Source of the DNA: Elusimicrobiota bacterium
GTDB lineage: Bacteria; Elusimicrobiota; Elusimicrobia; UBA1565; UBA9628
Length of the DNA: 18,454 bases
Direction of reading: 5' to 3'
Assembly: GCA_028871595.1 (NCBI GenBank)
Contig: JAGWMT010000035.1
Span: forward strand, 1-18,454
Below, piece after piece: positions 6,215 through 15,818 of the stretch. The notes under the pieces are model-generated. The model was not told the origin of the DNA and did not search any database. It was given only the letters and a program-made list of their open reading frames with translations. The translations under genes and the position numbers were made by a program. Position 1 is the stretch's first letter; each line of letters opens with the position of its first letter.

Positions 6215-6607
6215 TTACTTCGCGGGCGGTGCGGCGGGGGCGGGCGCCCCGGCCTCGTCCTTCTTGATGCGGCGGTTGATCCGGTTCTCCCGGCGGTTCA
6301 GCTTGCGCTGATCGGCCTTCGAGATGCGGCCGCCGTCCTTGGCCGCCATCGCGCGCTCTTCCTTTCTCACGCCGCGGTCTTCCTTGTGGATTTTGGCGGC
6401 CTGCTGCTTGGTCAACTTGCCGTCCTCGACGCCTTCCTTGGCGCGCTTGTTCTGATGGTTGAGGCGCTTGTTGACCTCATGACGGCGGGGATGCTCCTTG
6501 TTCCAAGCCTTCTTCGGCGCGGGGGCGGCCTCCTGGGCCAGCGCCGGGACGGCGAACGCGGCGGCGAGGACCAGCGAGCACAGCAACTTCCATTTGTTCG
6601 AGTTCAT
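6215..6607 (-). CDS. Small secreted, highly basic helical protein
   Basis: The product is 130 residues. It starts at ATG 6607 with a GGGAGA ribosome-binding site 6 nt upstream and a signal peptide cleaved after about residue 24 (PALAQ). The mature part is strongly charged and helical: EHPRRHEVNKRLNHQNKRAK, EDGKLTKQQAAKIHKEDRGV, RKEERAMAAKDGGRISKADQ, RKLNRRENRINRRIKKD. It ends in an Ala/Pro-rich tail. I recognise the pattern (HPRR-x-x-VN-x-R, DGK-L-T-x-x-QAAKIH, DGG-x-I-x-K-x-DQ) as that of an uncharacterised periplasmic family in environmental bacteria. The KDGGRISKADQ loop faintly recalls an EF-hand. Function is unknown; a periplasmic stress or metal-buffering role is only a guess. It is the second gene of a two-gene operon and sits before a strong terminator. 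Confidence 0.8.
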   Translation of the reverse strand: MNSNKWKLLCSLVLAAAFAVPALAQEAAPAPKKAWNKEHPRRHEVNKRLNHQNKRAKEGVEDGKLTKQQAAKIHKEDRGVRKEERAMAAKDGGRISKADQRKLNRRENRINRRIKKDEAGAPAPAAPPAK

Positions 6608-6671: not shown

Positions 6672-7109
6672 CTACTTCGAGCGTTCCTTGGCCGCCGTCT
6701 TGGCGGGGAGGTTCGCGCCGATGTCCTTGCGCGCCTTGAGAATGTCGGCCCGCTTGGATTCTCGGTCGGCCCTCAGTTGCGCCCGCACGGCGTCCTTCTT
6801 GGCCTTGAAGTCCACGCGGACTTTCTTGATGGCCGCGGTCTTGTCGGCGGCCGACTTCGCGGCGTCGGCTTTGACCGCGTTCGTGGCGGTCTTCTCCTGG
6901 GAGTCGAGGTCCTGGATCTGGGATTTTTGGGACGCCCAGTCCTTTTGGATGGCCGCCCGGTCCGCGGCGATTTCCTGACGGTCGGCTTTGACGGCGGCCT
7001 TCGCCGCGGCGGGATCCGCGGATTTTGACGGCGGGGCGGGGGGCGCGTCGGCGCGGGCGAGGGATAATCCGGCGGCGATCAGCAGGACGGCGGCGAGGAC
7101 GGTCTTCAT
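6672..7109 (-). CDS. Small secreted coiled-coil protein of unknown function
   Basis: I place the start at ATG 7109 rather than an upstream in-frame candidate at 7133. A GGAGA Shine-Dalgarno sequence lies 6 nt before it, and it begins the signal peptide MKTVLAAVLLIAAGLSLARA. The 145-residue product then has an Ala/Pro linker and one long charged helix (about residues 38-140) dense in Ala, Lys, Asp and Gln, very likely coiled coil. Repeating K-A-D/R-x-x-x units such as AAVKADRQEIAADRAAIQKD are visible. It has no cysteine and no lipobox. Low-complexity composition makes homology calls unreliable. It precedes a second small charged secreted protein 64 nt downstream, probably in the same transcript. 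Together they suggest an envelope role. Confidence 0.75.
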   Translation of the reverse strand: MKTVLAAVLLIAAGLSLARADAPPAPPSKSADPAAAKAAVKADRQEIAADRAAIQKDWASQKSQIQDLDSQEKTATNAVKADAAKSAADKTAAIKKVRVDFKAKKDAVRAQLRADRESKRADILKARKDIGANLPAKTAAKERSK

Positions 7110-7156
7110 CTTCGATCTCCTAGGCCGGACCAAGGGGCGTCCGGTCGGCCTTGGAA

Positions 7157-7200: not shown

Positions 7201-7938
7201 CTAGCCGCCGCGCCCGGAGGCCCAGGCCTCGGCGGCGGCCAGTTTTTCCGCCGTGCCGATGTCGTGCCAGGCCCAACGGTCGCCCCGGAAGGCGCGGATG
7301 TCGGCGCCACCCGCCGCCAGTCGGAGGTAGGTCTTCGTGATCGAGAAAATGCCGCTCTCCGTCATTTGATCGAGCAAAGCGGGAGAGACCACGTGGACGC
7401 CGTCGAACGGGAGACGCTTCGCGCCGGTGACGGCGCCCTTGGCCCAGGTGGTCCGTCCGGACTTGCGGTCGTCGTGGCCGACGAAGCGGCCTTTCGCGTC
7501 GAAAAGATAGGAACGGCCGCTCTCCCGCTCGCGCACGGCCAACGTCGCCAGCGCCTTCGATTCCAGATGCGCGGCGTACAACGCCTCGAGATCCAGATCG
7601 CTGAGCACGTCCGCGTTGTGCACGAAAAACGGCTCCCGGCCGCGGAGCAGGGCGGCGGCCTTCTTGAGCGCCCCGCCGGTGTCGAGGAGTAAATCATCCT
7701 CGCGCGAGACGGAGACGGGAACGCCGTGCCGCCGAGACAGTTCCGAGCAGAAGTCCGCGACTTTTTGCGCGTGATGGTGGGCGTTGACCACGAACGACTT
7801 CACGCCCGCGCCCTTGAGGCGGACCAAATTTCGTTCGAGCATGGGAACGCCGCCGACGGGAATGAGCGCCTTGGGAATCTCATCCGTCAGGGACCCCAGC
7901 CGGGAGCCGACTCCGGCGGCCAGAATCAGGGCCTTCAT
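7201..7938 (-). CDS. murU: MurU-like sugar-1-phosphate nucleotidyltransferase
   Basis: The 245-residue product begins MKALILAAGVGSRLGSLTDE then IPKALIPV, the G-x-G-x-R...P-K nucleotidyltransferase signature with R13 and K23. LDTGGALKKA (85-94) is the GTG-type loop seen in MurU, HNADV (107-111) supplies the metal-binding Asp, and HDIGT lies near the C-terminus. MurU (N-acetylmuramate-1-phosphate uridylyltransferase) makes UDP-MurNAc from UTP in peptidoglycan recycling. The length matches MurU (about 220-240) rather than the longer GlmU or RmlA. Its ATG overlaps the stop of the upstream kinase fusion as ATGA (7935-7938), indicating translational coupling. This mirrors the amgK-murU gene pair of Pseudomonas. 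The sugar specificity (MurNAc, GlcNAc or another) is inferred from context, not read from the sequence. Confidence 0.78.
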   Translation of the reverse strand: MKALILAAGVGSRLGSLTDEIPKALIPVGGVPMLERNLVRLKGAGVKSFVVNAHHHAQKVADFCSELSRRHGVPVSVSREDDLLLDTGGALKKAAALLRGREPFFVHNADVLSDLDLEALYAAHLESKALATLAVRERESGRSYLFDAKGRFVGHDDRKSGRTTWAKGAVTGAKRLPFDGVHVVSPALLDQMTESGIFSITKTYLRLAAGGADIRAFRGDRWAWHDIGTAEKLAAAEAWASGRGG

Positions 7939-9359
7939 TTCGCGGGCCAGGCCTTCTTCTCCCGGTGTGACACCGTCACGGCGACGCCCTGGTCGAGCAG
8001 ATGCTTGGCCAGCCGCTCGGCGCAGTACACCGACCGGTGCTGTCCGCCCGTGCAGCCGAACGCGACGAACAGGTGGGTGAAATTGCGCCGGCCGTAGTCC
8101 TGGACGGCCTGATCCACCAAAGCGAAGGCCGAGCGCGTCCAGCGGTCCACCGGCTCCTCCTTGGAGAGGTAGGCGATCACGTCCGGGTCCTGGCCGGTGG
8201 ATTCGGCGAACTCGGTCTTTCGGCCCGGGTTGGGCAGGCAACGGCAATCGAAGACGTAGCCGCCGCCGTGGCCCTTGTCGTCGCGCGGCATGCCTCCCTT
8301 GTAGGAGAAGCTCTGGATCCGGACCGTCAGCTTGAGCTTCGCCGCGCCGAATTGGCGCAGCGCCGAGGAGCCGACCAGGCGCTTGAACACGCCGGAGAGT
8401 TCCGGGACTTCGACGGGCAGGGTGGAGGTCAGCAGCACGTGCTCGATGTTGCGGATCGCGTAGGGGATGCTCTGCAGGAACAGGGGCTTCTTCTCATGGA
8501 AGCCCCGCAGGCCGTAGGCGCCCATGGCCTGCATGATGCGGATGAGGACGAAGCCGGGAAAGAATTTCTTGAACTCGGCCTTGTCCACCTTGGCGTGCTT
8601 GCCGGCCTCGCGGATGTAGAGGTCCAGGAGTTCGTCCCGAAGATCGAACGGGACGTCGGCCTTCGCGTCATAAAGGAGGGAGGCGATGTCGTACTGCAGC
8701 GCTCCGCGGCGGCCGCCCTGGTAGTCGATGAAATAGGGCTTGCCGTCCTTGAGCATCACGTTGCGCGATTGGAAGTCGCGGCACAGGAAATAGGTCCGCT
8801 CCGCGGCCAGGAGGTAGTCGGAGAAGACCTGGAAGTCCTCCTCCAACCGCTCCTCGTGGAAGACGACGCCGCCGAGGGTGAGGAAGTAGTACTTGAAGTA
8901 GTTGAGGTCCCACAGCATGGACTGCTTGTCGAAGCTCTTGCGCGGGTAGCACCAGCGGTCGTCGATGGTGCGTCCGGCCACGATCTGGATCTTCGGCAGC
9001 CAGCGCACGACGTCGCGGTAGGCGGAGACGACGTCCTCCGGAAAGCCGGCCGCGCGCCGCTTCTTCCCGAGAAACTGAAAAAGCGTGGTGTCGCCGAGGT
9101 CTTCCTCCAGGTACGCGGTCCCGGTCGAGTCTTCCGCGTAGAATTCGGGAACCGGGATGCCCTCCCGGCGGAAGTGCTTGGAGAACTCGATGAAGGCCCG
9201 GTTCTCCTTGACGTCCGCGTTGACCACCCCGACCGCCGTCGTGCCGCCGCCGGAGAGGCGGTAGATCTTCCGGTTGGAGCCTTCCGCCCTCACGGGAGTC
9301 AGCGTCTCGGCCGCGCGGCCGAAGCGGTTCCGGAACAGAGTCATCAAGGGATCGGTCAC
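7935..9359 (-). CDS. AmgK-like sugar kinase fused to a RapZ C-terminal domain
   Basis: The product is 474 residues in two parts. Residues 1 to about 330 are an aminoglycoside-phosphotransferase-fold kinase like AmgK: a nucleotide-binding N-lobe, a CRDFQSRN catalytic loop (193-200; D195, N200; Cys replaces the usual His) and IDYQGGRRG (211-219) with metal-binding D212. Residues about 342-474 match the C-terminal domain of RapZ: VRIQSFSYKGGMP, VFDCRCLPNP, TGQDPDVIAYL, and GCTGGQHRSVYCAERLA (435-451). In E. coli RapZ this domain binds glucosamine-6-phosphate. The P-loop domain of RapZ is absent. The likely role is ATP-dependent phosphorylation of recovered MurNAc/GlcNAc for the coupled MurU-like enzyme, with the RapZ part sensing an amino-sugar phosphate. 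GTG 9359 lies 6 nt after a TAAGAT -10; ATG 9344 is an alternative. Confidence 0.85.
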   Translation of the reverse strand: MTDPLMTLFRNRFGRAAETLTPVRAEGSNRKIYRLSGGGTTAVGVVNADVKENRAFIEFSKHFRREGIPVPEFYAEDSTGTAYLEEDLGDTTLFQFLGKKRRAAGFPEDVVSAYRDVVRWLPKIQIVAGRTIDDRWCYPRKSFDKQSMLWDLNYFKYYFLTLGGVVFHEERLEEDFQVFSDYLLAAERTYFLCRDFQSRNVMLKDGKPYFIDYQGGRRGALQYDIASLLYDAKADVPFDLRDELLDLYIREAGKHAKVDKAEFKKFFPGFVLIRIMQAMGAYGLRGFHEKKPLFLQSIPYAIRNIEHVLLTSTLPVEVPELSGVFKRLVGSSALRQFGAAKLKLTVRIQSFSYKGGMPRDDKGHGGGYVFDCRCLPNPGRKTEFAESTGQDPDVIAYLSKEEPVDRWTRSAFALVDQAVQDYGRRNFTHLFVAFGCTGGQHRSVYCAERLAKHLLDQGVAVTVSHREKKAWPAK

Positions 9360-9472: not shown

Positions 9473-10738
9473 ATGATTTTCTCGACCCTTGCCGCGGCCT
9501 TGCTGGCCGCTTCCGGCTCCCCCGCCGCGGCCGCCGACGCCAAGATCCTTACGCTCGACGACGCTTACGCCGCCGCCTTGGTCCGCAGCGAGACGATCGC
9601 GGAGAAGGGCGAGACCTACGCCCAGGTGCTGGCGCAGATCGACGAGATCTGGGCCGCCGTTCAGCCGCGCTTGAACCTGAACGCGAACCATGTCTGGCAG
9701 GACACGCCGGGACAGGGGGTGAACTTCCCGCTCCCCGCCAACCAGGACACCGTCGCGATCAACGGCCACCAGCCGATCTTCGCCGGATTGCGCGATTTTC
9801 TGGCGGTGCGCGCGACCAAGGTGGAAAGCGAGTCCGCCGAACTGGCGCTGACGCGCGCCAAGCAGCTCCTGTATCAGGACGTCGCGGGCGCTTATCTCAA
9901 TGAGCTTCAGAACCGCCGCCAGATCTCCACGCTGGAAGCGCAGGTCAAGCTCACCGACGACCGCATCAAGGAGTTGAAGAACTTCGTGGACATCGGACGT
10001 TCCCGCAAGAGCGAGATTTTGGCGGCCCAGTCCCAACTGGCGCAGGATCAGGCCGATCTCGCAGCGGCCCGGGGCGGCGAGCGTCTGTCCCAGGAAACCC
10101 TCCAGTTCCTCACCGGCTTGAGCGGCGAACTGGCGCCGCAGGAGGTCGAAACGCCGGCCGCCGCGGACGACATCCAGTCCTTCCTGGACCGCGCCCAGAC
10201 CCGGCCCGACGTGGAGGCGGCGCGCAAGGACTTCGAGTACGCGGACATCTACGTGACCATGCAGGGGCGCCAGCACCTTCCGACGGTCTTCCTCGACGGA
10301 AATTACTACCTGCGCCGTCCGAACAATTTTTCCAAGAACGTGCATTGGGACGCCACGTTGACCGGGCAGCTCCCGATCTACTACGGAGGTCAGATCGCCG
10401 CGCAGGTCCGGGAGGCGAAGGCCGCCCGCGGGATCAAGGAGGCCGCGTTGTCCCTGGCGTCGCGCCAGGCGGCGCTCGAGGTCCGTTCCGCGCACAGCGA
10501 CCTGGAATCAGACCTCTCCGTCGTGAAGGCGCTGCAGAACGCGATGAACCTGGCGGAGGCCAACGCCAAGGCCCAGGCCGAGGACTACCGCCACGGAATG
10601 GTCACCAACATCGACGTGCTGACCAGCCTGACCGTCGTCCAGAACACGCGCCTGCGGCTGGACCAGGCGGAGATCCAGGCGTACGACGCGCGCGTCAGAC
10701 TTGAAGTGGCCGCCGGCGGCCCCCGGAGCGTGAAATGA
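9473..10738 (+). CDS. TolC-family outer-membrane efflux channel
   Basis: The product is 421 residues. A signal peptide (1 to about 20, SPAAAADA) is followed by the internal duplication typical of TolC: LTLDDAYAAALVRSETIAEK at the start of repeat one, and a second half beginning about residue 245 (TRPDVEAARKDFEYADIYVT). Both contain long Ala/Gln/Glu-rich helices that form the periplasmic tunnel. LPTVFLDGNYYLRRPN and ATLTGQLPIYYGGQIAAQV are the beta-barrel strands. HGMVTNIDVLTSLTVVQNTR is the characteristic near-C-terminal helix. It forms the trimeric exit duct through the outer membrane for an RND pump. ATG 9473 has an AGGAG site 4 nt upstream. Its stop overlaps the pump's ATG as ATGA (10735-10738), showing tight coupling. 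Confidence 0.92.
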   Translation: MIFSTLAAALLAASGSPAAAADAKILTLDDAYAAALVRSETIAEKGETYAQVLAQIDEIWAAVQPRLNLNANHVWQDTPGQGVNFPLPANQDTVAINGHQPIFAGLRDFLAVRATKVESESAELALTRAKQLLYQDVAGAYLNELQNRRQISTLEAQVKLTDDRIKELKNFVDIGRSRKSEILAAQSQLAQDQADLAAARGGERLSQETLQFLTGLSGELAPQEVETPAAADDIQSFLDRAQTRPDVEAARKDFEYADIYVTMQGRQHLPTVFLDGNYYLRRPNNFSKNVHWDATLTGQLPIYYGGQIAAQVREAKAARGIKEAALSLASRQAALEVRSAHSDLESDLSVVKALQNAMNLAEANAKAQAEDYRHGMVTNIDVLTSLTVVQNTRLRLDQAEIQAYDARVRLEVAAGGPRSVK

Positions 10739-13700
10739 GCCTTTCCGACCTTTCGATCCGCAACCCCGTCTTCGCCTGGATGCTGATGCTGGGACTGATG
10801 GTCTTCGGCTGGATCGGCTTCCACCGGATGGGCGTCAGTCAGCTCCCCGACGTGGATTTCCCTATCGTCAACATCACCGCGAACTGGGAGAACGCTTCGC
10901 CCGACGTGATGGAGACCCAGGTCGCCTCCATCATCGAGGACTCGGTCGCCAGCGTCGAGGGGATCACGAACATCACCTCCTCGTCCCGCCTGGGCTCCAC
11001 GACGGTCACCATCGAGTTCGCGCTGAACCGCAAGATCGACGCCGCGGTCCAGGACGTGCAGAGCCACCTGTCGCAGGCCCAGAAGGACCTTCCCAAGGAC
11101 ATGGACCCGCCGATCATCCAGAAGGTCAACCCCGAGGACCAGCCGATCATGTGGCTGGCGCTCAGCGCCAAGCCGGGCTCCGACGTCACTTTGTCCGATA
11201 TCTGCCGTTACATCAACGAGCACCTGAAGGACGAGCTCTCGATGATCCCGGGCGTGGGCAACATCAACCTGGGCGGCTACGTGGACCCGAACCTGCGCGT
11301 CTGGCTGGACGCCGACAAGATGGCGGCCAAGGAGATCACCGTCGAGGACGTGCTCGACGCCATCAACGCCCAGCACGCCGACGTTCCCGCCGGCTGGATC
11401 GACACCGCCGACAAGGAGTTCAACGTCCGCGTGTACGGAGAAGCGGCGACTCCCGCTGAATTCGCCAATCTGCTCATCCCGACGCGCCGCCGCGGCGGCG
11501 CCGTGTACCGCAAGATCCGCATCTCCGATATCGGCACGGTCGAGGACGGGCTCAACGACATCCGTCGCATCTCCCGCTACCAGGGCGACCGCGCGGTCGG
11601 TCTGGGCATCATCAAGCAGCGCGGGACCAACGCGGTCGCGGTGGCCGACGCCGTGGACGCGAAGGTCAAGGCGCTGGAGCCGCTGCTTCCCAAGGGCATG
11701 CAGCTGCGCAAAGTGTTCAGCTCCACTCAGTTCATCAAGGACTCGGTGCGCGAGCTGGACGGCGAGCTGATCCGGTCCGTGATCCTGACGTCCTTGGTCT
11801 GCCTCTTGTTCCTGGGCTCCTGGTCCGCGACGCTCAACGTCCTGCTGGCCATCCCGACGTCGATCCTGGGCACCTTCATCATCCTGTACTTCTGCGGCTT
11901 CACCATCAACAGCTTCACCATGCTGGGCCTCTCGCTGGTGGTCGGCATCATCGTGGACGACGCGATCATGGTGCTGGAGAATATCGCCCGCTACCGCGAG
12001 GAGGGCTATTCCAAGATGAAGGCGGCCATCGTCGGCGCGCGGGAGATCACCTCGGCCGCGTTCGCGGCCTCCCTGGCCATCCTGGCCATCTTCATGCCCG
12101 TCGTCTTGATGGACGGCATCGTCGGCAAGTTCTTCTTCCAGTTCGGCGTGACGATCTCCGTCGCCGTCGTCATCTCCCTGCTGGAGGCGTTGACCATCGC
12201 CCCGATGCGCTGCTCCCAGTTCCTCGAAGTCGGCGCGTCGAACGTCGTCACCCGCTTCGTGGACCGCGGGATGGACCGGGTCCGCTCGGGCTACCGCCGG
12301 ACGCTGGAGAAGTTCCTGGATCATCCCGGGAAGGTCGTGACCGTGTCGGTGGTGTTGTTCGCGCTGTCCCTGTCGATGGTGCGCTTTCTTAAAAAGGAGT
12401 TCATTCCGTCGCAGGACCAGAGCATCTTCCTGGTGAACGTGACCCTGCCCCTGGGCGTCTCGCTGGAGCACACCGACAACCTGTTCAAGGAAGAACTCGA
12501 GCCCTGGATGAAAGCGCGCCCCGAGTTGGACCATTATTACTGCGCCATCGGCGGCTTCCAAGGCGGCCAGGTCAACACCGGCATCTTCTTCGTGACGATG
12601 AAACCGCGGGGAGACCGGCCGATGTACCACGGCCATCGCGAGACGCAGGGGGACTTCATGGCCCTGGTCCGCTCGGAGTTCTCGAAAGCGCCGGGCATGG
12701 ACCGCGTGTCCATCCTGGACATGTCGCAGGCGGGCTTCTCCGCCCAGCGCGGTTACCCGATCCAATTCATGATCCAGGGTCCCGAGTGGGGGAAGCTGGC
12801 CGAGTACGGAGCGGAGTTCCGCAAGCGCATGAAGGCGACCGGGCTGATGACCGACGTGGACACGGACTACAACCCGGGCATGCCCGAGATCCAGATCCAT
12901 CCCGATCGGCAGAAGGCCGCCGAGCACGGCATCACCGCCCGCTCGATCGGCGACACCATCAACGCCATGATCGGCGGCGTCAAATACGGCAAGTTCACCC
13001 AGCGCGGCAAGCGCTACGACGTGCGCGTGCGCCTGGTGGACAAGGACCGCAACAGCCCCAAGGACATCGACCGCATCTGGGTGCGCGACCAGTTCGGCAA
13101 CGTGGTGCGCTTGCCCGAGGTCATCACGCAGAAGGTGGAGCCTTCCCTGTTCGCGATCTCGCGCTACAACCGGGAGCGCTCGGTCTCCGTGTTCGCGAAC
13201 CCGGCGGCGGGCAAGTCCCAGGGCGAGGGCCTGGAGGCCGTGCAGGCGATGGCCAAGGACATCCTCCCCGAGGGCTACCACATCGTGATGTCGGGCAACG
13301 CCCAGCTCTTCAAGGAATCGCAGATGAACATGCTGTTCGTGATGATCATGGGCGTCTTCGTCGCCTACATGATCCTGGCGACGCAGTACAACAGCTTCAT
13401 CCACCCGGTCACCGTCCTGATGGCCCTGCCGTTCAGCGTCACCGGGGCCTTCCTGGGTTTGGCGCTCACGCACCAAAGCCTGAACATCTACAGCATGATC
13501 GGGCTGGTCCTGCTGATGGGCATCGTGAAGAAGAACTCGATCCTGCTGGTGGACTTCACCAACGAGCGCCGCAAGCACGGCCTGGGCGTCCGCGCGGCCC
13601 TGCTCGACGCGTGCCCCGTCCGCCTGCGTCCCATCCTGATGACGTCCGCGGCCACCATCGCGGGCGCCACGCCGCAGGCGTTCGCCACCGGGCCGGGCTC

Positions 13701-13893
13701 CGAGCTGATGGTCCCGATGGCCGTGACCGTCATCGGCGGCGTCCTGGTCTCCACGGCGCTGACCTTGCTGGTGGTCCCGTGCTTCTACATCCTGATGAGC
13801 CGCTTCGAGAGCACGAAGTCCGACACGGAGCTCAAGGAGGCGCTCGGCGAACTGGGCGAGCTTCCCGCCGAGAAGACTCTCGTTCACGCCTGA
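10735..13893 (+). CDS. RND efflux transporter, AcrB/HAE-1-like
   Basis: The 1052-residue length is that of the AcrB/MexB class. It opens with LSIRNPVFAWMLMLGLMVFG (TM1) and has two periplasmic porter/docking loops. The first large TM block carries VGIIVDDAIMVLENIARYRE with D408-D409, equivalent to the AcrB proton-relay aspartates. TM10 has GIVKKNSILLVDF, whose K933 matches AcrB K940. The proton pathway is intact and the protein should be a proton-motive-force-driven exporter of drugs, dyes, detergents or lipids. Heavy-metal (CusA) features are not seen, but the substrate cannot be told. Normally a periplasmic adaptor joins pump and TolC. None is encoded beside this pair, so one must come from elsewhere. 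It is controlled by the operator at 9442 together with the channel gene. Confidence 0.93.
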   Translation: MSLSDLSIRNPVFAWMLMLGLMVFGWIGFHRMGVSQLPDVDFPIVNITANWENASPDVMETQVASIIEDSVASVEGITNITSSSRLGSTTVTIEFALNRKIDAAVQDVQSHLSQAQKDLPKDMDPPIIQKVNPEDQPIMWLALSAKPGSDVTLSDICRYINEHLKDELSMIPGVGNINLGGYVDPNLRVWLDADKMAAKEITVEDVLDAINAQHADVPAGWIDTADKEFNVRVYGEAATPAEFANLLIPTRRRGGAVYRKIRISDIGTVEDGLNDIRRISRYQGDRAVGLGIIKQRGTNAVAVADAVDAKVKALEPLLPKGMQLRKVFSSTQFIKDSVRELDGELIRSVILTSLVCLLFLGSWSATLNVLLAIPTSILGTFIILYFCGFTINSFTMLGLSLVVGIIVDDAIMVLENIARYREEGYSKMKAAIVGAREITSAAFAASLAILAIFMPVVLMDGIVGKFFFQFGVTISVAVVISLLEALTIAPMRCSQFLEVGASNVVTRFVDRGMDRVRSGYRRTLEKFLDHPGKVVTVSVVLFALSLSMVRFLKKEFIPSQDQSIFLVNVTLPLGVSLEHTDNLFKEELEPWMKARPELDHYYCAIGGFQGGQVNTGIFFVTMKPRGDRPMYHGHRETQGDFMALVRSEFSKAPGMDRVSILDMSQAGFSAQRGYPIQFMIQGPEWGKLAEYGAEFRKRMKATGLMTDVDTDYNPGMPEIQIHPDRQKAAEHGITARSIGDTINAMIGGVKYGKFTQRGKRYDVRVRLVDKDRNSPKDIDRIWVRDQFGNVVRLPEVITQKVEPSLFAISRYNRERSVSVFANPAAGKSQGEGLEAVQAMAKDILPEGYHIVMSGNAQLFKESQMNMLFVMIMGVFVAYMILATQYNSFIHPVTVLMALPFSVTGAFLGLALTHQSLNIYSMIGLVLLMGIVKKNSILLVDFTNERRKHGLGVRAALLDACPVRLRPILMTSAATIAGATPQAFATGPGSELMVPMAVTVIGGVLVSTALTLLVVPCFYILMSRFESTKSDTELKEALGELGELPAEKTLVHA

Positions 13894-14377: not shown

Positions 14378-15043
14378 GTGAACCCGGAATCGTGCCCCTT
14401 GTGCGGCGGCGCCTCGCGCGCCTTTTTCGCCGCCGAGGGGCGCGATTTTTTCCGGTGCGCGAGCTGTCTCCTGACTTTCGTGCCCCCGTCGCAGCATTCG
14501 GTTCCGGCGCGGGAGCGGGCGCGCTACGCGGAACATAACAACGATCCCGGAGATCCGGGCTACCGTGAGTTTCTTGACCGTCTGCTCGCGCCGCTGGGCG
14601 CCGCCCTCCGTCCCGGCGCCGAAGGATTGGATTACGGCTGCGGCCCCGGTCCGGCGGCGTCGCGGATGATGGGCGAGCGCGGATTCCCGACGAACGACTA
14701 CGATCCGTTTTTCTTCCCGGACCGCGGCGCGCTGGCGCGCGTTTACGATTTCATCGTCTGCACCGAGGTCCTGGAGCACCTGCGCCGTCCGGCCGACGAT
14801 CTGGCGCGGCTGGACGGACTGCTGAAGCCCGGCGGCGCGTTGGGCGTCATGACCGGAATCTTGGAGGACGACGCGGCCTTCGGGACCTGGTGGTACCGCA
14901 ACGATTTCACCCACATCGCGTTCTACCGCCCGGAGACGCTGGAGTGGATCGCGAGGCGTTTCGGCTGGACGCTGGAGCGGCCCTCCCGAGACGTCGCGCT
15001 GTTCCGGAAACCCGCGGTCAGCGCAGGCGGAGAAGCGTCGTGA
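14378..15043 (+). CDS. Class I SAM-dependent methyltransferase with N-terminal zinc ribbon
   Basis: The product is 221 residues from GTG 14378; no strong ribosome site is seen. A zinc ribbon with CPLC (6-9) and CASC (27-30) heads the protein. A Methyltransf_23-type Rossmann domain follows: LDYGCGPGP (84-92) binds SAM, TEVLEHL (129-135) is the post-II acidic/His motif, and LLKPGGALGVMTG (148-160) is the motif IV-V region. HIAFYRPETLEWIARRFGW near the end is typical of this annotation group, often called UbiG-like though they are not ubiquinone enzymes. The zinc-ribbon plus methyltransferase form is frequent among natural-product and polysaccharide-tailoring enzymes, but the substrate is unknown. 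It overlaps the convergent TauE/SafE gene by 26 bp (15018-15043). Confidence 0.85.
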   Translation: MNPESCPLCGGASRAFFAAEGRDFFRCASCLLTFVPPSQHSVPARERARYAEHNNDPGDPGYREFLDRLLAPLGAALRPGAEGLDYGCGPGPAASRMMGERGFPTNDYDPFFFPDRGALARVYDFIVCTEVLEHLRRPADDLARLDGLLKPGGALGVMTGILEDDAAFGTWWYRNDFTHIAFYRPETLEWIARRFGWTLERPSRDVALFRKPAVSAGGEAS

Positions 15044-15818
15044 CGTGCTCGGTGAAGAACAGGTCGTAGAAGCCGAACGCCGTGAGGAGGGCGCCGTAGA
15101 CCCGGATCAAGGTGCGGCTGCGCAGACGGATGGCCAACTGGGCGCCCAGATAGGAACAAGGGATCGCTCCCAGCGACAGCAGCACGACGATCCGCCAGTC
15201 GATGTGGCCCAGCCACCAGTGGGTCAGCGTCCCGGGGATCGCCAGCACCGCCGAGATGATGAGGGAGCTGGCCAGGGCGCGCTTGGGGGGCATCTTCACC
15301 CACTGAATGAAAAGCGGGGCGTAAAGAATGCCCCCGGTGTTCGCCAGGAGTCCGGAGAACAGTCCGACGGCGAGGGCGATGACCGTCAGCCGGAAGTTCG
15401 CGTTCGGAACGGGGGGCGCGTCGCCGTCCGGTCCGCCGGGCATCGCGTGTCCGTGTATCGAGAGGGAGACGCCCAGGGAGATCACGAACAAAGCGGTCAG
15501 GATCATCAGCGGCGGTCCGCCGACCCAGCGGCTCAAGAGAGAGCCGAGCACGGTCGCGGGAATGCCCCATAGGACGCTGGTCTTCACCGCCTCCACGTCC
15601 ACCATGCCGCGGCCGCGGTAGGCCCATGAGGCCGAGAGGGCCGTGGGCAGCGCCGAGGGCAGGGGGGAGGCCAGCGCCGCGAACTCCGGGACGCCGAGAA
15701 ACACGCGCAGGACCGGCGTGGTCACGGCGCTGCCGCCCTTGCCCAGCAGGCCGGACAGGAAGCCGACGGCCGCGCCGACCTCGGTCACGTGGACGTCGAA
15801 AGACGTGGTGGTCATCAT
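15018..15818 (-). CDS. TauE/SafE-family membrane permease (full size)
   Basis: The 266-residue membrane protein has about eight hydrophobic segments in two homologous halves. The first half carries AAVGFLSGLLGKGGSAVTTP and the second VGLFSGLLANTGGILYAPLF, the paired G-x-x-G-x-x-G signatures of the TauE/SafE (DUF81) family. These inner-membrane proteins export or import small anions, including sulfite, sulfoacetate and other organosulfur compounds. Substrate specificity cannot be read from the sequence. A His/Asp-rich loop (about residues 120-140) joins the halves. It starts with two adjacent Met codons at 15818/15815, 8 nt after a TAGAAT. It diverges from a half-size relative at 15869 and overlaps the methyltransferase 3' end. 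Confidence 0.88.
   Translation of the reverse strand: MMTTTSFDVHVTEVGAAVGFLSGLLGKGGSAVTTPVLRVFLGVPEFAALASPLPSALPTALSASWAYRGRGMVDVEAVKTSVLWGIPATVLGSLLSRWVGGPPLMILTALFVISLGVSLSIHGHAMPGGPDGDAPPVPNANFRLTVIALAVGLFSGLLANTGGILYAPLFIQWVKMPPKRALASSLIISAVLAIPGTLTHWWLGHIDWRIVVLLSLGAIPCSYLGAQLAIRLRSRTLIRVYGALLTAFGFYDLFFTEHVTTLLRLR

Follow-up and report, generated by a model that had tools for sequence, protein, structure and literature searches.

What is the C-terminal domain of the riboregulator RapZ doing on a bacterial sugar kinase? The question is raised by one gene in a stretch of 18,454 nucleotides from an Elusimicrobiota contig, referred to below as the window. The initial annotation had described the gene product as an amino-sugar kinase joined to a complete RapZ C-terminal domain (RapZ_C) and lacking the RapZ P-loop domain. 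A Pfam domain search bore out the junction, with matches to APH (1.2e-12) and RapZ_C (PF22740, 4.8e-35), and the P-loop N-terminal domain was absent in the Pfam and NCBIfam searches alike. The catalytic residues D195, N200 and D212 and the RapZ_C loop motif were found at the positions that had been given for them. The reading frame starts with GTG, with an ATG in frame at residue 6 as the alternative. NCBIfam names the protein both AmgK and RapZ, each at a score far under the respective equivalog cut-off; unlike MupP, it matched no HAD family in Pfam or NCBIfam. One scan of genome contigs returned at least 582 relatives, and in all of the best 80, which were kept, the fusion is full-length; therefore, chance joining or misassembly was rejected. 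The coordinates are collected in Table 1.

Table 1. Features of the fusion gene, its MurU partner and the rest of the window
Feature	Position	Strand	Remarks
Fusion gene, 474 aa	7935..9359	(-)	N-terminal AmgK/APH-like sugar kinase and C-terminal RapZ_C
Kinase part, residues 1-336	8352..9359	(-)	APH fold; closest solved fold 3csv; N-acetylhexosamine 1-kinase also matches
Catalytic loop D195-F-Q-S-R-N200	8760..8777	(-)	D195, F196, Q197, S198 and N200 invariant (63/63); R199 90% or more
D212	8724..8726	(-)	Invariant (63/63); presumably the metal-binding Asp, a role we assume from the APH family
RapZ C-terminal domain, residues 344-468	7956..8330	(-)	NPG[RK] subfamily
Glycine-rich insert GHGGG, residues 363-367	8259..8273	(-)	No insert in E. 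coli RapZ (alignments); G363, G366 and G367 invariant
N377-P-G379-R380	8220..8231	(-)	NPHW in E. coli; Gly379 in place of His190
C436-T-G-G-Q-H-R442-S443, CX5R(S) phosphate-binding loop	8031..8054	(-)	Between strand and helix
MurU-like MurNAc-1-phosphate uridylyltransferase gene, 245 aa	7201..7938	(-)	Directly downstream of the fusion; NF045761, 1.9e-32
ATGA overlap	7935..7938	(-)	Fusion stop codon and MurU start codon
Small Ala/Lys-rich ORFs	6215-6607, 6672-7133	(-)	Signal-peptide-like start by eye; no Pfam match
Outer-membrane efflux protein and RND (AcrB-like) transporter genes	9473-13893	(+)	Divergent from the fusion
Cupredoxin-like protein	13921-14355		Gene after the RND transporter
TauE/SafE permease	15018-15818	(-)	
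Second, shorter TauE-like segment	15626-16231	(+)	Resemblance of the translation, by eye

The setting is that of cell-wall sugar salvage, as had been proposed from the letters: the fusion's stop codon overlaps the start of a MurU homologue. This homologue scores 113 bits against NF045761, under the equivalog cut-off of 250, and that family is still its top NCBIfam match. Of the 80 loci, 57 have a MurU homologue immediately downstream and in the same orientation; four loci end too early, and the 19 without one are titled as Bacteroidota groups (18) or unclassified (1). The genomes of seven of these 19 loci were searched, and each carries a MurU homologue elsewhere; taken over all fusion genomes searched, 36/36 have one somewhere. 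The pairing of kinase and MurU points to UDP-MurNAc salvage, and a two-domain protein of cell-wall sugar recycling is the best explanation of the fusion. We also surveyed 176 ORFs from 45 of the 80 loci, 133 of which lie next to the fusion or two after it; 105 of the 133 were scanned, and 28 were excluded by eye, most of them ORFs that overlap the MurU region or run antisense to it, along with five of more than 900 aa. Nucleotidyltransferases were the only strongly recurring neighbors (22 of the 105 proteins); the DUF218 and YebC families occurred five times each.

The N-terminal part is an APH-fold kinase with the catalytic Asp, Asn and Asp of AmgK, and its AmgK NCBIfam score of 45.4 bits, against an equivalog cut-off of 550, marks it as a relative rather than a certified AmgK. 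We infer that it is an AmgK that acts on MurNAc. The low scores (45.4 versus 550, and 113 versus 250 for the partner) would also fit some other APH-fold kinase, which is not an anomeric MurNAc/GlcNAc kinase, next to some other nucleotidyltransferase. We consider this very unlikely because AmgK and MurU head the NCBIfam matches of the kinase part and the transferase, respectively, the kinase fold matches N-acetylhexosamine 1-kinase, and the two genes are not only adjacent in 57/80 loci but fused in some Verrucomicrobiota. There, MurU and an AmgK-like kinase form one protein of 640-666 aa (L163, L164, L165, L170, L172, L174), in six of 11 fetched kinase loci, which were drawn from 61 kinase-only genomes and picked partly for long ORFs. 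Thus, this kinase family does fuse with its pathway neighbors.

In RapZ_C, the loop residues C, T, G439, H, R and S are invariant in 81/81 fusions and G438 is present in 80/81; the CX5R(S) loop is also kept in 3/3 domains encoded by separate genes, and in the predicted structure model it is flanked by the strand 429-436 and the helix 442-456. No protein-tyrosine-phosphatase-fold chain was among the matches listed (50 each) in four structural searches, so the resemblance that we claim is one of the loop only. The polar residues S350, D360, D371, R373, N377, D391, H441 and H465 are invariant as well. Feedback control by GlcN6P had been suggested for this protein, and the pocket fits that suggestion in part. 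Five of six E. coli pocket or adjacent residues are kept, namely Cys247, Thr248, Gly249 (in 80/81), His252 and Arg253; a check for lost GlcN6P-contacting residues found loss at one only, His190, which is Gly in 81/81 fusions and in 3/3 stand-alone domains. His190 is among the named pocket residues of E. coli RapZ (PMC5737377, PMC9841335), and the full anion pocket (H190, T248, G249, H252, R253) is therefore represented by four of its residues in the fusions. In canonical RapZ proteins of the same genomes (n=18), this position is occupied by His (11), Tyr (3), Asn (3) or Phe (1), i.e., 7/18 are not His.

The three nearest relatives, 82-83% identical, come from Elusimicrobia metagenome bins. Relatives of the protein also occur in cultured species (Draconibacterium orientale, Mariniphaga anaerophila). 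Going by record titles, the best 80 of at least 582 relatives also include Acidobacteria, Bacteroidota, Calditrichota, Neomarinimicrobia, Verrucomicrobia, Ignavibacteria and others. In sampled genomes, the fusion was present in 23/149 Elusimicrobiota, 4/149 Acidobacteriota and 1/145 Verrucomicrobiota. The occurrence in Bacteroidota, which the initial annotation mentioned, was confirmed: the domain was found in 20/148 sampled genomes, in 17 fused and in three as a separate gene. Half of the fusion genomes (18/36) have a second RapZ_C match, and when fetched, all 18 stretches proved to hold a canonical RapZ with 39-43% identity to the E. coli protein; in the other 18 the fusion is the sole match.

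In the three Bacteroidota genomes with a separate gene for the domain (G067, G048 and G131), this gene lies with the kinase gene on one side and a MurU gene on the other, and its product is 133-135 aa long. In a kinase tree of 66 rows, these split forms nest within fusions at two separate places, and the domain was apparently split off twice and retained; G048 and G131 sit together on a long branch (2.12), which makes their exact place less sure. In each genome, the break falls within the linker. The parts are separated in G048 by a 66-nt gap with further in-frame stops inside, and in G067 and G131 by a single in-frame stop, one codon and 14 codons ahead of the new ATG, respectively; sequencing errors are an unlikely cause. 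Three short database proteins that start with Met at the domain edge (P0059, P0074, P0103) were seen among nine that were read out of 120 listed from 5821 matches; many of these are on short contigs, so the matches give no count of stand-alone genes. Retention after fission makes purely tethered allostery less likely, whereas an enzyme or a trans-acting partner would survive the split. A stand-alone gene of the NPG type, 168 aa, also lies in a Verrucomicrobiota genome without AmgK-like or AnmK match (L169:3130-3636, minus strand). Among the 120 short proteins listed, JGI often gives the label ‘RNase adaptor protein for sRNA GlmZ degradation’, a name that probably misleads where the fusion is concerned.

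In the published route, AnmK yields MurNAc-6P, MupP dephosphorylates it in Pseudomonas, and AmgK and MurU lead to UDP-MurNAc (PMC5371407, PMC5371409). A published reconstitution of the MurU pathway depends on mupP or on a supply of MurNAc (PMC5371409). We found AnmK in 33/36 fusion genomes (in two as contig-end fragments) and a MurQ match of at least 290 bits in 29/36, with 23 passing the curated cut-off. Six of the 36 have AnmK, the fusion and a MurU homologue with no MurQ match of at least 290 bits, and in these MurNAc-6P would need a phosphatase. Kinases with the domain were compared to kinases alone, many of the genomes being incomplete assemblies: AnmK is present in 15/20 versus 0/30 genomes in Bacteroidota, 4/4 versus 7/62 in Acidobacteriota (62 kinases among the matches listed, E to 2.9e-13, including G392 with two internal stops) and 0/1 versus 0/61 in Verrucomicrobiota, where the base rate is 4/145. 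Of the 30 domain-less Bacteroidota kinases, 29 adjoin a MurU homologue and the thirtieth lies at a contig end. The association has a stratified P of about 3e-12 with phylogeny ignored. However, AnmK is also frequent in genomes with no kinase listed, and domain genomes are not richer in it (15/20 versus 89/98 in Bacteroidota; 4/4 versus 47/83 in Acidobacteriota); thus, the contrast arises because kinase-only genomes lack AnmK. On the 66-row kinase tree, the domain-bearing kinases have a single origin (the place of G045 being flagged as unsure), which leaves one independent pair, and the AnmK link was therefore rejected as independent evidence; for eight of 36 domain-bearing rows, the genome shows no AnmK match. 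Caulobacter vibrioides, our control, has AnmK and no RapZ_C match, and Caulobacter crescentus is reported to have MupP, AmgK and MurU (PMC13046382). For Tannerella forsythia, AmgK and MurU are described and the AnmK orthologue is reported absent (PMC7670621). The pattern is as expected if the domain handles AnmK-made MurNAc-6P, and a MurNAc-6P sensor predicts the same; this is a suggestion, not proof.

The reading that we prefer, tentatively and at somewhat less than an even chance, is that RapZ_C is a MurNAc-6P phosphatase that replaces MupP and feeds the kinase; we infer both its activity and its substrate. AnmK would supply MurNAc-6P, and the CX5R loop would strip the 6-phosphate, with Cys436 as putative nucleophile and with Arg442 and backbone amides holding the phosphate. 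Free MurNAc would pass to the fused kinase, which would phosphorylate it (or perhaps GlcNAc) at C1, and the MurU homologue would convert the product into UDP-MurNAc. Gly379 and Arg380 may fit the lactyl group of MurNAc-6P. More tentative still is the wider proposal that RapZ_C, fused or stand-alone, represents a new CX5R sugar-phosphate phosphatase and, in Bacteroidota, Elusimicrobiota, Acidobacteriota and others, the MurNAc-6P phosphatase missing from the AmgK-MurU route, that Gly379 and Arg380 accommodate and pair with the lactyl carboxylate, and that RapZ is a riboregulator derived from such a recycling enzyme.

Dephosphorylation would explain the invariance of the loop in fused and stand-alone domains and its position between strand and helix, the persistence of the domain as a gene of its own, at two positions in the kinase tree, in three genomes of Bacteroidota, and the AnmK counts, including the six genomes without a strong MurQ match; the Caulobacter data and the Verrucomicrobiota MurU fusions are in line with it. 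Published work on E. coli RapZ adds chemistry: the C247S variant is inactive, Islam et al. suggested a catalytic SH, and their crystal of the C-terminal domain with GlcN6P shows density of a likely transformed product; the same paper terms the GlcN6P site of RapZ ‘yet uncharacterized’ (PMC9841335). Khan and Gorke, in a review, likened the pocket to the loop found in Cys-dependent tyrosine phosphatases and speculated that GlcN6P might be hydrolyzed there (PMC7199280). Against dephosphorylation of MurNAc-6P stand the collapse of the AnmK link to a single independent pair, the finding that domain genomes are not richer in AnmK than kinase-free ones, the eight tree rows without AnmK and seven Acidobacteriota, among the matches listed, with AnmK and a kinase devoid of the domain. 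No support comes from Verrucomicrobiota (the sole fusion genome lacks AnmK, kinase-only genomes score 0/61, and G233 has the domain with neither kinase nor AnmK match), MurQ, which also consumes MurNAc-6P, has a strong match in 29/36 fusion genomes, and E. coli uses these residues for RNA binding. An enzyme that acts on GlcNAc-6P, GlcN6P or the C1 product of the kinase, or one that transfers phosphate, would account for the active-site-like set of invariant polar residues and for the chemistry on GlcN6P suggested by the E. coli crystal (PMC9841335), but the pattern of kinase and AnmK points weakly to MurNAc-6P and we regard such an enzyme as improbable.

An allosteric sensor of an amino-sugar 6-phosphate, GlcN6P or more likely MurNAc-6P, that tunes the kinase up or down ranks second to the phosphatase and is itself rather unlikely. 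Most pocket residues are kept, a covalent tether suits allostery, a sensor of MurNAc-6P fits the AnmK pattern equally well, and the E. coli domain binds GlcN6P with a KD of 10 nM by SPR (PMC7073468). On the other hand, His190 is Gly in every fusion and the domain also occurs as a separate gene. Since almost all bacteria make GlcN6P, a sensor of this compound would not be expected to track AnmK. The fissions and the AnmK pattern together suggest activity on MurNAc-6P no less readily than a switch operated by GlcN6P. Less probable than any of these is a structural or nucleic-acid-binding role, in which the domain dimerizes the kinase or binds RNA and the pocket holds an anion. The C-terminal domain of RapZ does dimerize, and this pocket is where it binds sRNA (PMC5737377, PMC9841335); D182, at which an Ala substitution abolishes contacts that need proper oligomerization (PMC7073468), is invariant as D371; and among seven RNA-contact basic residues, K170 (basic in 80/81), R184 (81) and R196 (50) are mostly kept. 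However, R238 is Phe in 81/81, K251, K194 and R211 are basic in only 11, 23 and 31 of 81, and a mere dimerizer need not retain CTGGxHRS.

The idea of a RapZ phosphatase has thus been published, and what would be new here is its application to the fusion and to MurNAc-6P. We found no paper on a RapZ-AmgK fusion and none linking RapZ with MurU in the open-access literature, which leaves out most subscription journals, so that prior mention is possible; RapZ and peptidoglycan recycling come together there in one E. coli GlmY/GlmZ paper. In this case, a RapZ-type pocket is part of a metabolic protein whose pathway is defined (AnmK, kinase, MurU). Its occasional existence as a free 133-aa protein offers a simple test system for the chemistry of that pocket. 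Should the domain prove to be a phosphatase, it would account for the MurNAc-6P step of recycling in bacteria other than proteobacteria and hint at the origin of RapZ; if it is a sensor, RapZ-type control acts directly on an enzyme, without RNA.

Compared to known systems, the C-terminal domain shares with RapZ (E. coli, YvcJ-type) the fold (1.4-1.6 A) and the CTGGxHRS loop, but it comes without the P-loop N-terminal domain, has NPG[RK] for NPHW and an extra GHGGG insert, and four of the seven basic RNA-contact positions are mostly not basic. With Cys-dependent phosphatases (protein tyrosine phosphatases) it shares the C-x2-G-x2-R-S signature between strand and helix. The kinase part resembles AmgK of Pseudomonas and Caulobacter in APH fold, catalytic residues, MurU-homologue partner and salvage context, and differs in bearing RapZ_C and in scoring well under the AmgK equivalog cut-off. 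The related kinase of Verrucomicrobiota is likewise fused to a pathway partner, which is MurU instead of RapZ_C. The proteobacterial AmgK route relies on a separate HAD phosphatase, MupP, whereas the fusion has RapZ_C attached; the proposed step, MurNAc-6P to MurNAc, would be the same, carried out by a CX5R cysteine loop unrelated to MupP.
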